This document shows positions 1,196 through 32,332 of a DNA stretch of 64,000 bases, piece after piece. How positions within the stretch are numbered: the stretch's first letter is position 1; every line of letters begins with the position of its first letter. The translations under genes and the position numbers were made by a program. This stretch comes from Prochlorococcus marinus bv. HNLC2. GTDB lineage: Bacteria; Cyanobacteriota; Cyanobacteriia; PCC-6307; Cyanobiaceae. Location of the stretch: contig GL947595.1 of assembly GCA_000218745.1 (NCBI GenBank), forward strand, positions 343,795-407,794, given 5' to 3'. The notes beneath the pieces are model-generated. The model did no database searches and was not told the DNA's origin. It was given only the letters and a program-made list of their open reading frames with translations.

Positions 1196-2089
1196 ATGAA
1201 TTCACTTTATTACCAGAAAAGATTATCAAGAAATATAGGAGATAAATTCTTTACTTCTTTATCAGTAATTTGTGCATTGATAGCAATACTACCTTTGATT
1301 TTTCTGGTGACTTATATTCTTATCAAAGGTGGATCTCAAATAACACCAGAACTATTTACTTTAGAACCAAATCCTCCTGGAGATGATTTAGATGCAGGAG
1401 GTATTAATCCTGCATTGATCGGGACATTAATAATTACTACCATTGCTTCAATTATTGCAATACCAGTAGGTGTTGGTGGTGGGATATATCTAGCGGAATA
1501 TTCTAAAGGTGGTGCTTTTTCAAGATTTATTAGATTTGGGGTAAATGTTTTAGCGGGAGTTCCCTCAATAATTGCCGGTGTATTTATTTATGCATTAATA
1601 GTTTCAACAAAGATCTTATTTGGAAGTATGTACAGCGGTTTGGCTGGAGGTATGGCTCTTTCAATATTGATGTTGCCTACTGTGATTAAGACGACTGATG
1701 AAGGTTTAAAGTTAGTACCAAATGAATTGAGATATGCTTCTCTTGGTGTAGGAGCAAGTATGTATACAACTATATTGAAAGTTACATTGCCCTCTGCCTT
1801 TAGATCTATTGCTACGGGTGTTGTGCTTGGAATTGCAAGAGCAGCAGGCGAAACAGCACCTTTGATCTTTACTGCTTTATTCTCTTACTACTACATAACA
1901 GGCTTTGGAGATTTGTTTTATGAGATGGGTTCTTTGGCTGTATTGATATATAACTTTGCTCTTGAACCATACGATGCACAGAATAAATTAGCCTGGGCAG
2001 CTTCCTTTATTCTTGTTTTATCGATACTATCAGTAAATATATTTTCAAGGATATTAGCCGCTTTTACTGAGAAAACCAAGAGAGTATAA
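1196..2089 (+). CDS. pstA: Phosphate ABC transporter permease PstA
   Basis: This is the second permease subunit of the phosphate importer and pairs with PstC. The 297-residue product has a hydrophobic segment at about residues 25-45, later membrane helices, and the EAA-type loop 'LGVGASMYTTILKVTLPSA' followed by 'GIARAAGETAPL', which is typical of PstA. It starts 6 bp after pstC and its TAA is directly followed by the ATG of pstB, so translation is probably coupled. Length is normal for the family. Confidence 0.96.
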   Translation: MNSLYYQKRLSRNIGDKFFTSLSVICALIAILPLIFLVTYILIKGGSQITPELFTLEPNPPGDDLDAGGINPALIGTLIITTIASIIAIPVGVGGGIYLAEYSKGGAFSRFIRFGVNVLAGVPSIIAGVFIYALIVSTKILFGSMYSGLAGGMALSILMLPTVIKTTDEGLKLVPNELRYASLGVGASMYTTILKVTLPSAFRSIATGVVLGIARAAGETAPLIFTALFSYYYITGFGDLFYEMGSLAVLIYNFALEPYDAQNKLAWAASFILVLSILSVNIFSRILAAFTEKTKRV

Positions 2090-28741: not shown

Positions 28742-28786
28742 TAATTTAGATTGCACTTAATTTTAGGTAATCTATTCCCAATCATT

Positions 28787-29704
28787 ATGAATGTAAGCAT
28801 TGTTATTCCTACCTATAACAGGAAACCTATTCTAATAAAATGTTTGCATGCTTTAGAAAATCAAAAACTTAATAAACTTATTGATTCTTATGAAATTATA
28901 GTTGTAGATGATGGATCTACAGATGGTACGACTGAATGGATAAAAGAAAACCAAAGAAATCTACCTCATGTTGTTTTATATGAGCAAGAACATGGTGGGC
29001 CAGCTCTTGGTAGAAATCTTGGTGTATTAAAATCAACAGGTGATGTTATTATTTTTATAGATAGTGATCTTGTTGTAGTTAATAATTTTATAATTCATCA
29101 TGTTAATAAACTTAATAAATACTGGATTAAAAAAAATAAAAAATGTTTTACTTACGGATCTGTAATAAACACATCTAATTTTCAAAATCCTTTATCAGAG
29201 GATAGCAAGATAACTGATATTTCATTCGCTTATTTTGCAACTGGAAATGTAGCTATTTCTAAGGAACTACTCTTGGATGTAGGCTTGTTTGATACTTCAT
29301 TTAGTCTATATGGATGGGAGGATTTAGAACTTGGTGAAAGATTAAAAAAAATTGGTGTAAAACTAATAAAGTGTCCTGATGCTAAAGGCTTTCACTGGCA
29401 TCCAGCTTTTAATTGTGATCAGATACCACTATTACTGAATAAAGAGATTGAGAGGGCAAAAATGGCCTTAATCTTTTATCAAAAACATAAAAATTTAAGA
29501 GTAAGGTTTATAATTCAATTTACGATTTTCCATAAATTATTATGGAATGTTTTATGTTTAGGTGGATTAATCAATACTAATTTAATATTTCCTTTATTAA
29601 AATTCTTAGTTAAATCAGGTAAAAGTGGAATAGCAATGGAAATTTTAAAATTGCCTCTAAATTATGTTTATGTTAGTGAACTTTATAAATTAAGTAGGAA
29701 ATAA
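28787..29704 (+). CDS. Family 2 glycosyltransferase
   Basis: The 305-residue GT-A enzyme has 'VSIVIPTYNRKPIL' at the start, 'IIVVDDGSTDGT', the metal-binding region 'IFIDSDLVVV', and a catalytic-region 'YGWEDLELGERL'. Two hydrophobic stretches near the C-terminus suggest membrane association. The reading frame extends 12 codons upstream, but the ATG at 28787 begins at the conserved first strand. Sugar donor and acceptor are unknown; cell-surface polysaccharide synthesis is likely. Confidence 0.88.
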   Translation: MNVSIVIPTYNRKPILIKCLHALENQKLNKLIDSYEIIVVDDGSTDGTTEWIKENQRNLPHVVLYEQEHGGPALGRNLGVLKSTGDVIIFIDSDLVVVNNFIIHHVNKLNKYWIKKNKKCFTYGSVINTSNFQNPLSEDSKITDISFAYFATGNVAISKELLLDVGLFDTSFSLYGWEDLELGERLKKIGVKLIKCPDAKGFHWHPAFNCDQIPLLLNKEIERAKMALIFYQKHKNLRVRFIIQFTIFHKLLWNVLCLGGLINTNLIFPLLKFLVKSGKSGIAMEILKLPLNYVYVSELYKLSRK

Positions 29705-29758
29705 CTTTTTCGTTATGAATCTCAATTTGCTATTATAGTTAAGTAAATTTAAACCACA

Positions 29759-29822
29759 CATCTGACAGTTTCGGGTGATTCAATAATAGAATTTCCCGTC
29801 AGATGGAGGCTAACCCGAAACT
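29759..29822 (+). promoter_or_regulatory. rpsB 5' leader with interleaved inverted repeats (possible pseudoknot)
   Basis: CATCTGAC (29759-29766) is inverted at 29798-29805 as GTCAGATG, and AGTTTCGGG (29767-29775) is inverted at 29814-29822 as CCCGAAACT. The order a-b-a'-b' is that of an H-type pseudoknot. GGAGG (29805-29809) lies between a' and b', 21 bases before the rpsB ATG, farther than a usual spacer. An alternative hairpin pairs GGG 29773-29775 with CCC 29795-29797. This suits a translational autoregulation site for S2. Confidence 0.7.
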
Positions 29823-29830
29823 TTTTAAAT

Positions 29831-30535
29831 ATGGCTGTTGTTACTCTTTCCGAAATGATGGAAGCTGGTGCTCATTTTGGGCATCAAACTAGACGTTGGA
29901 ATCCGAAGATGTCTAAATATATATATTGTGCAAGAAATGGTGTTCATATTATAGATCTTGTTAAAACTGCAGTTTGTATGAATGATGCCTACAAATGGGC
30001 TAGATCCGCAGCTAAGAGTGGCAAAAGATTTTTGTTTGTAGGAACTAAAAAACAAGCATCTGACGTAGTTGCTCAAGAGGCATCAAGATGTGGTGCAGCT
30101 TATGTCAATCAAAGATGGTTAGGAGGAATGTTAACCAATTGGACTACTATGAAAGCAAGAATTGAAAGATTAAAAGATTTAGAGAGGATGGAATCTAGTG
30201 GTGCTATAGCAATGCGTCCCAAAAAAGAAGCAGCTGTACTGAGAAGAGAATTAGAGAGATTGCAGAAATATCTTGGTGGACTCAAAAATATGAGAAGGTT
30301 ACCTGATGTAGTTGTTTTGGTTGATCAGCGCAGAGAGACAAATGCTGTGCTTGAAGCACGTAAACTTGATATCTCTCTAGTATCAATGCTTGATACAAAT
30401 TGTGATCCTGATTTATGTGAAGTTCCCATTCCTTGTAATGATGATGCAGTTAGGTCTGTTCAGCTTGTATTAGGTAGGCTTGCTGATGCAATTAATGAAG
30501 GAAGAAAAGGTTCTAATGATCAAAGAAAAAATTAG
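29831..30535 (+). CDS. rpsB: 30S ribosomal protein S2
   Basis: The 234-residue S2 protein has the typical start '[22 protein letters not shown]' and '[12 protein letters not shown]', '[12 protein letters not shown]' and '[11 protein letters not shown]'. It is followed by tsf, the standard bacterial pair. The ATG sits 9 bases after the last base of a structured leader. It is probably autoregulated through that leader. Length is normal and no anomalies were seen. Confidence 0.98.
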
Positions 30536-30594: not shown

Positions 30595-31251
30595 ATGTCA
30601 AACATTACAGCAAAATTAGTTAAAGAGCTCCGCGATAAGACAGGAGCTGGAATGATGGACTGCAAAAAAGCATTAAATGAAACAGATGGAGATGTTGAAA
30701 AAGCTATTGAATGGCTTCGAAAGAAAGGGATTGCAAGTGCTGAAAAGAAATCAGGTAGAGTTGCCGCAGAAGGTTCTATTGGTAGCTATATCCACACAGG
30801 ATCAAGAGTTGGAGTTCTTCTTGAATTAAATTGTGAGACTGATTTTGTTGCTAGAGGAGAAATTTTTCAATCTCTTTTAAAGGATGTTGCTATGCAAATA
30901 GCAGCATGTCCTAATGTTGAATATGTTTCAATTGATGAGATACCTAATGAAGTCGTAAAAAAAGAAAAACAGATTGAAATGGGTAGAGATGATTTAGCTG
31001 GTAAACCTGATCAAATCAAAGAAAAAATTGTAGAGGGGAGAATATCAAAAAGATTAAATGAATTAGTCTTATTAGAACAACCTTATATAAAGGATAGCTC
31101 ATTGTCTGTAGAGCAATTAGTTAAAGAAACAGCTGGTAAGATTGGAGAAAATATTAGAATTAGGAGGTTTACAAGATATACCTTGGGAGAAGGTATTGAA
31201 GTTGAGACTGTAGGTTTTGCAGAAGAAGTCGCATCAATAAAATCAAATTAA
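30595..31251 (+). CDS. tsf: Translation elongation factor Ts
   Basis: EF-Ts recharges EF-Tu with GTP. The 218-residue product has the UBA-like N-terminus '[16 protein letters not shown]', the family signature '[10 protein letters not shown]' and the core ending '[15 protein letters not shown]'. It is 59 bp downstream of rpsB. A 358-aa gene of unknown role begins 5 bp after its stop on the same strand. Confidence 0.98.
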
Positions 31252-31255
31252 AATA

Positions 31256-32332
31256 TTGGATAATTATTTATTTAAAAAATATCAAGAAAAAGCTGATAAC
31301 CAACTTCTACTGATAGAAGATCGAAAATTAAAAATAAGAAAAGATATTTATATGATGTATTTCTTATATTTAAATCGTATTAGGTCAGAATTTTTTAACT
31401 ATATTAGAAAAGCTATTAGTTCTATAGAGGAATCTAAAACTGCAATTAACTTAAGTAAAAAAGAAATGCAATCAATAATAGCAAATGATATTAATCCTTT
31501 GATAAATGAGAGGATGCCCTTTATAACAATAGAACAATTGACCTTAACAAAATACTCCTTTCAAAATAAGTCATTAAAAGTTGATCATTTCCCTGAGAAA
31601 GATCTTGATCTAGATGTCAAATCTTTTTACAAAAAAGATAATAAGACTTATTCATTAAATATTTCTTCTGAATGTAAATACTATAGTTTTTCAGAAGAAT
31701 ATGAATTGAATTCATCAATTAATTTAGATAATTTTAATTTTGAATATCAAAATCTAATTGATTACGGTAATATCATTGATAAGCAAACTTGTGATTCCGT
31801 AAATAATGAGAAAATAATAAATGGAGCATTAAGGGATTTCGATATATTAAAAAATGATCAAGAAAATTATAAAAATATGCAAATTTTTGATGAAATCTCA
31901 AATCTTTTAAATTGGTCTGAGTGGCTAGATTTTTCCTTGTCTTGTCAATTAAAGAAAATAACTTATCAAATTAATAATATTCTATTTTTAAAAAAGATTA
32001 TTAAGAAAAAAATTAGTAGTGAATTTCTTGACTATATTTCGGATAATAATTTTTTAATTGCAAATCCATTTCCATTTGTTAATTTATTTGATTTAAATAA
32101 TAAGGAATGTATTAATTTTGATAATTTTGATAAAAATGCAGATTATTCAAAAATTTATTTCTTAAATTTAAATATTACAGAAATTGAATTTTTTGATATA
32201 AATTTAAATATTATTAGGAATAAGATAACTGATTTAAAATATCAAATGCATTTATTAATCAAGAAAGAAAAATATTGGAATAATAAAAAGTTATATGCTA
32301 AAAGGAATAAATCCATTATAAATAAAATATAA
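31256..32332 (+). CDS. Hypothetical protein between tsf and recG (358 aa)
   Basis: A TTG-started frame of 358 residues begins 5 bp after tsf and ends 17 bp before recG. The protein is rich in Lys, Asn, Ile and Asp, with helices such as 'SIEESKTAINLSKKEMQSI' and a C-terminal 'DLKYQMHLLIKKEKYW'. There is no signal peptide, membrane segment or known motif. I do not recognise the family. It may be specific to marine picocyanobacteria, and its place in the tsf-recG operon is the only context. Confidence 0.7.
   Translation: MDNYLFKKYQEKADNQLLLIEDRKLKIRKDIYMMYFLYLNRIRSEFFNYIRKAISSIEESKTAINLSKKEMQSIIANDINPLINERMPFITIEQLTLTKYSFQNKSLKVDHFPEKDLDLDVKSFYKKDNKTYSLNISSECKYYSFSEEYELNSSINLDNFNFEYQNLIDYGNIIDKQTCDSVNNEKIINGALRDFDILKNDQENYKNMQIFDEISNLLNWSEWLDFSLSCQLKKITYQINNILFLKKIIKKKISSEFLDYISDNNFLIANPFPFVNLFDLNNKECINFDNFDKNADYSKIYFLNLNITEIEFFDINLNIIRNKITDLKYQMHLLIKKEKYWNNKKLYAKRNKSIINKI

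Follow-up and report, generated by a model that had tools for sequence, protein, structure and literature searches.

A Prochlorococcus member of the rpsB motif family of S2 leaders with a long predicted pseudoknot and a candidate rival pairing

The 'rpsB motif' of Meyer et al. 2009 (BMC Genomics 10:268, PMC2704228) carries a pseudoknot and is reported from Proteobacteria, Firmicutes and Cyanobacteria. According to that paper's section on the motif, it is located upstream of rpsB and consists of a long P1 stem, a P3 hairpin and a P2 stem that is absent or very short in Cyanobacteria. The pseudoknot joins a strand of the junction to an extension 3' of P1, and has five base pairs in most groups. 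Prochlorococcus is named once in the main text of the paper, where it serves as background and not as a carrier of the rpsB motif.

Two further descriptions concern the same genomic position. A 2009 prediction of noncoding RNAs in model cyanobacteria (PMC2662882) includes a 'rps2 leader' (cluster 394, 'possible rps2 5'UTR') with two sequences, both from cyanobacteria other than ours. This too is a structurally conserved element upstream of a cyanobacterial S2 gene and is termed a ribosomal leader, but the parts of the paper that describe it mention no pseudoknot, and it can be likened to our element by description only. For Escherichia coli, the relevant part of a 2024 review states that S2 represses translation of rpsB-tsf with the help of S1, by a mechanism called unclear, and that, according to reports, the operator does not include the ribosome binding site. 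A term search of the main text of a 2020 survey of ribosomal leaders gave no mention of uS2 or of cyanobacteria. Among the titles listed in a literature search none concerned a picocyanobacterial S2 leader, which is not proof that none is in print.

The element described here is located immediately 5' of rpsB in the window, which is the whole stretch of 64,000 nucleotides of Prochlorococcus DNA that was analysed (Table 1). The arms of its P1 stem (helix a) and of its predicted pseudoknot helix (PK, helix b) are interleaved in the order a-b-a'-b', and both helices pair perfectly. The original prediction, made from the letters of the DNA, had this order and the 8 bp of the first helix right; the second helix has 10 bp and not the 9 it gave. 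A GGAGG sequence lies between the last two arms at the predicted distance from the ATG, and it shares its first G with the end of the P1 3' arm. The GGG and CCC triplets proposed to form a second fold are likewise where they had been placed, but they extend P3, inside helix a, rather than the first hairpin itself. There is no P2 stem in this element because only 0-1 nt separate P1 from PK, which leaves no room for it. Among the best 80 of 582 S2 loci, the nearest protein is 100% identical and comes from an uncultured Prochlorococcus. The gene for elongation factor Ts, tsf, follows rpsB and is presumably on the same transcript. Between tsf and an ORF for a recG-like helicase there is an ORF of 358 aa with a TTG start (31256-32332) that, on reading, has no evident family.

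Table 1. Positions in the window of the leader's parts, its predicted promoter and the neighbouring genes
Feature	Position	Strand	Remarks
Glycosyltransferase-like ORF, upstream neighbour	28751-29704	+	named by reading the translation
Extended -10 promoter element, TGCTATTAT	29728-29736	+	predicted transcription start ~29742-29744
Conserved CACA, foot of P1	29757-29760	+	almost unchanged across alignments A1-A4; shared with the E. coli leader
P1 5' arm (a), CATCTGAC	29759-29766	+	both-side changes at 8/8 pairs in 78 leaders, 99.0% of cells paired
PK 5' arm (b), AGTTTCGGGT	29767-29776	+	partner 29813-29822, 10 bp
P3 hairpin	29777-29793	+	GATTC 29777-29781 / GAATT 29789-29793
CCC	29795-29797	+	potential partner of GGG 29773-29775 in the nested fold, which is incompatible with the pseudoknot
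P1 3' arm (a'), GTCAGATG	29798-29805	+	8 bp with the 5' arm; P1 pairing and covariation
GGAGG between P1 and the PK 3' arm	29805-29809	+	21 nt to ATG 29831
PK 3' arm (b'), ACCCGAAACT	29813-29822	+	8 nt from its end to the ATG
rpsB, ribosomal protein S2	29831-30535	+	ORF; 94-100% identical to S2 of the best 80 of 582 loci
tsf, elongation factor Ts	30595-31251	+	ORF; named from translation and gene order

There are 190 rpsB upstream regions in the comparison set: 80 named loci, the window and 109 loci from genomes of the same phylum, the last made up of 29 loci and 80 regions from two retrievals. The named loci are the best 80 of 582 and are therefore biased towards close relatives, and named and phylum loci may overlap. 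By group, 137 regions belong to the family of the window (here called picocyanobacteria), and 53, which are among the matches listed for the class, belong to the same class (here called others). One region (L050) begins inside the leader at a contig end and was dropped, which leaves 136 picocyanobacterial and 53 other leaders. These 189 all have the same architecture of P1, pseudoknot arms and linker, as the original prediction of an rpsB leader with pseudoknot arms would have it. They represent 84 distinct sets of helix arms; the rows share descent and carry no weights. The conserved CACA was one of the anchors of the leader parse, so its presence in the parsed leaders is partly by construction; two leaders (L088 and L176) were parsed with anchors set by hand. 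A MAFFT alignment of 150 of the 163 distinct leaders was not used for counting, as it placed the PK arms of the two groups one base out of register; it omitted 13 further Prochlorococcus-type leaders, and leaders with long loops (10) and duplicates (15) had been removed earlier.

We derived a covariance model, R1, from 48 of the 53 other leaders, giving it no structure besides P1 and P3 and no picocyanobacterial sequence; the five leaders left out have P3 loops of more than 58 nt. In a search of 79 sources there were 78 matches, the one miss being L140 with its loop of 144 nt. For the window element the score is 50.9 bits (E=2.5e-12); R1 also matches the rpsB leader of E. coli K-12 (L203:102-178), at 22.4 bits (E=7e-4), E-values here being rough. 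The E. coli leader has CACA, GGAGGC and AACCC in common with the cyanobacterial leaders. The best match of the window in Rfam is the family of that same leader, t44 (RF00127; E. coli tff/T44), at 27.8 bits (E=3.2e-4). The alignment covers 29737-29815 and brings CACACA, part of P1 and GGAGGCUAAC into register, but the t44 model carries a long extra helix that is absent from the window element. An Rfam search had been among the checks proposed for this locus; it bears out a relation to t44, but the score falls short of that family's gathering cut-off of 44 bits, and no Rfam family reaches its gathering score in the window.

In position, in its covarying P1, in a P3 that occurs without P2, in its pseudoknot arms and in its homology to the E. 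coli leader, the window element agrees with the rpsB motif. For the predicted pseudoknot this agreement takes the form of complementary, conserved arms. The element is thus a member of this known family of S2 leaders, related to t44, and the class to which it belongs was already known. The suggestion that it might be a picocyanobacterial version of its own gives way to the motif reported in PMC2704228, whose stated carriers already include Cyanobacteria.

R1 was also searched more widely. In 373 genomes of the phylum there are matches in 153, under strict filters that lose known leaders such as those of G139 and G175. The non-photosynthetic members of the phylum have four weak matches under these filters (E 0.017-0.061). 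Six genomes have two or three matches each (G019, for example at G019:C66:196575-196649, and G095, G097, G187, G237 and G253); these may be weak second copies, or chance hits, away from rpsB. The t44 model, searched under strict filters over 194 genomes of the phylum, gave matches at E<=10 in six and reached its cut-off in none, the genome of the window not being among them. A scan of viral contigs for S2 gave one locus, with a protein identical to that of E. coli.

Covariation supports the formation of P1 and P3. In the alignment fitted with R1 (A4; 78 leaders), which leans towards P1 and P3 since it was fitted to them, both sides change at every pair of P1 (Table 1) and at 5/5 pairs of P3, where 92.1% of cells are paired. 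The observed values for both stems are reached by none of 500 shuffles, and slid registers fall far below them. When 48 other cyanobacteria are aligned by plain MAFFT, with no fitting to structure, both-side changes are found at 7/8 pairs of P1, 2/5 of P3 and 0/7 of PK. The pairing of P1 also exceeds all 500 shuffles in the anchor-based set, in both groups and hence in the picocyanobacteria alone. One of the eight P1 pairs is broken in 13/136 picocyanobacterial and 6/53 other leaders. Paired changes in P1 can be seen even among closely related Prochlorococcus-type loci (L036, L042, L053, L075 and L088).

The record of PK is different in kind, so that the covariation for which the original prediction proposed to test both helices is found for helix a and is absent, within Cyanobacteria, for helix b. 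In the R1-fitted alignment 99.1% of PK cells are paired, but none of the 7 pairs counted changes on both sides: three change on one side only, two never vary and two depart only through unpaired cells. Against shuffled partners, the pairing over 9 pairs is reached by 500/500 shuffles in picocyanobacteria and 58/500 in the others, because the arms hardly vary. The few changes in the arms mostly preserve G-U pairs. The sole cross-phylum change is in the fifth PK pair of E. coli, where G-C would replace C-G (GGGGT/ACCCC); this is a reading of one sequence, in which GGGGT is present twice and whose PK 5' arm appears as a gap in A4, outside the counts. Judged from these alignments, PK is conserved but not covarying within Cyanobacteria.

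Upstream of the element there is a conserved candidate promoter. The sequence TGNTANNNT is found 8-55 nt upstream of CACA in 134/134 picocyanobacterial and 53/53 other leaders, a scan of 187 that took 134 of the 136 picocyanobacterial leaders and left out L088 and L140. A control stretch 80-127 nt upstream has it in 1/134 and 2/53. In a second control stretch, 140-187 nt upstream, it is found in 61/134 and 1/53, and this stretch lies inside the upstream ORF in the window.

The GGAGG is present in 184/189 leaders at 19-32 nt from the ATG, and we read it as part of the element and not as the ribosome binding site, since it appears too far from the ATG for a Shine-Dalgarno sequence and since E. 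coli, with its GGAGG 33 nt from the ATG, keeps a separate AGAGG closer to the start. A Shine-Dalgarno-like motif between the pseudoknot core and the ATG occurs in 0/136 picocyanobacterial leaders and in 52/53 others. The idea that this lack is an adaptation specific to the leader was rejected, as the ORFs of the window are no richer in the motif than background: among those of at least 120 aa it precedes 3/54, compared with 8.2% of background positions, a comparison that involves small numbers and takes the first ATG as the start.

The picocyanobacterial leaders form a variant that, judged from their alignment, differs from the rest in the length of the pseudoknot and in a rival pairing. With G-U pairs counted, PK has 9 bp in 130/136 picocyanobacterial leaders and 10 bp in the other 6, whereas the 53 others have 6 bp (5 leaders), 7 bp (20), 8 bp (22), 9 bp (5) or 10 bp (1); most groups in PMC2704228 have the five pairs given above. 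In 128/136 picocyanobacterial leaders a CCC lies within the 5 nt that precede the P1 3' arm, compared with 4/53 others. The nested GGG/CCC pairing that it permits is absent from that paper's section on the rpsB motif. Among 56 loci labelled by genus, a PK of 9 bp is present in 14/14 genera and CCC in 12. The exceptions are genus g5, which has ACC, and genus g12, which has CTT, and ACC also occurs in 4/9 loci of g4. Outside genus g1 the block reads TCCCT, with conservation of 0.98 for both Ts and 0.83-1.00 for the Cs, and the bases further out fall to 0.32-0.68.

The two pairings of GGG are mutually exclusive, and a second fold through GGG/CCC is possible, as had been proposed, with energies and the conservation of CCC in its favour. 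Covariation is uninformative on this nested fold because GGG is invariant. Across nested ensembles, the mean probability of GGG being captured on the P3 side is 0.99 in picocyanobacteria (above 0.5 in 136/136) and 0.54 in the others (26/53). Shuffling the loops of 50 leaders per group, four times each, gives means of 0.77 (172/200) and 0.70 (156/200), respectively. About 6.7 kcal/mol are needed to free the GGG strand in picocyanobacteria, compared with 4.0 in the others, and the PK helix is worth about -17.1 compared with -14.1 kcal/mol. The net before any pseudoknot penalty is thus -10.5 in picocyanobacteria, -10.1 in the others and -11.2 kcal/mol in the window. Usual pseudoknot penalties are about 7-10 kcal/mol. 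Once such a penalty is applied, the calculated nested and pseudoknot folds would be near balance.

We consider it likely that the window element is an S2 autoregulatory leader of the rpsB motif class on the Prochlorococcus rpsB-tsf transcript, with a two-way use of GGG and a blocking fold held by S2. Transcription would start at about 29743 from the conserved extended -10 promoter, and the leader RNA would form P1 capped by P3, with two alternative uses for the GGG strand beside P1. One is the nested fold, where GGG would pair with the CCC by P3 and the stretch before the AUG would stay single-stranded and thus accessible to the 30S subunit. The other is the pseudoknot, where the GGG strand would instead pair with ACCCGAAACU, which ends 8 nt before the AUG and within the footprint of the ribosome, and initiation would be blocked. 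Perhaps free S2 that has not been taken into new 30S subunits binds the core formed by P1, GGAGG and the pseudoknot, and holds the blocking fold. This would lower the production of S2 and, through the shared transcript, of EF-Ts. Blocking by nearness to the AUG may not be the mechanism, since the E. coli ribosome binding site is reported outside the operator in the review cited above.

Another possibility, which carries real weight although we lean against it, is that the pseudoknot is always formed and there is no switching. S2, with S1, would then hold or trap the initiating 30S subunit on the pseudoknot, and CCC would be kept for another reason such as a contact with protein. The length of PK and its near invariance in picocyanobacteria speak for such a fixed structure. 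The nested rival is weak outside picocyanobacteria, where capture of GGG is less probable than in shuffled loops, which suggests that the element in its ancestral form does not need it. Outside g1 the Ts that flank CCC are as strict as the Cs, which suggests that the block may serve a role other than pairing with GGG, and even in picocyanobacteria GGG finds a partner in most shuffled loops. Yet every picocyanobacterial nested ensemble captures GGG, at a mean well above that of the shuffled loops, and the advantage of the pseudoknot before its penalty is only about 10 kcal/mol, near the usual penalty values.

The two-way use of GGG can be extended to a history for the whole group, which we offer as a speculation that is rather unlikely to hold in full. 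A marine picocyanobacterial ancestor may have turned an ancient S2 leader into a balanced two-state switch. The fixing of CCC beside P1 would have allowed GGG to complete a nested hairpin and so to expose the start. In competition with that hairpin, PK would have grown from some 7 bp to 9 bp or more, and it would end about 7-15 nt before an AUG that has no Shine-Dalgarno sequence. Folding set by S2 would then decide whether the ribosome lands. This two-state reading is weakened by the 172/200 shuffled loops that also capture GGG and by the conservation of the bases that flank CCC.

It is much less probable that the leader gives rise to a stable small RNA, whether as an additional or as its main role; the corresponding E. 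coli region was originally annotated in this way. The R1 match in E. coli K-12 overlaps the ncRNA feature tff, 'putative small RNA T44', which covers the homologous stretch, and Rfam types t44 as 'Gene; sRNA'. Against this, the only R1 match at E<=0.1 in the organism's own genome (one contig of 1,484,494 bases) is at the rpsB leader (E=2.0e-11), and the structure reaches to within 8 nt of the AUG. All compared leaders were chosen upstream of rpsB, so their location is no evidence against a small RNA.

The bare inverted repeats are only mildly unusual in AT-rich DNA. At least one interleaved pair of 8 and 9 bp is present in 33/100 dinucleotide shuffles of the 64-kb window, although in 0/100 is such a pair as rich in G+C as that of the leader (9 G+C positions). 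By a cruder count, there are 6 interleaved 8-mers in the window and on average 3.1 in each of 40 shuffles. Perfect inverted repeats also interleave at a second place in the window (1291-1351, 9+8 bp); this pair is lower in G+C and fits the rate of chance in the shuffles. As a nested fold, 29743-29880 has no unusual stability (z -0.76): 45/200 shuffles fold as well or better. The leader is judged to be a real, well-conserved RNA because of conservation and covariation across the aligned leaders, not because of the repeats by themselves. That the repeats are nothing but a site in DNA for a protein, or chance, we take as refuted despite the frequency of such pairs in shuffled windows, given that the both-side changes in P1 and P3 and the homology to the E. 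coli leader in sequence and structure fit an RNA.

The finding would place an S2 feedback leader in a streamlined and abundant free-living cyanobacterium, and the element is found in all 14 genera of the family that were sampled. The natural variants in P1, in the length of PK and in the rival CCC could be used to ask how S2 recognises its own message. If the two-state reading is true, these organisms would have a means of controlling the start site of translation that does without a Shine-Dalgarno sequence.
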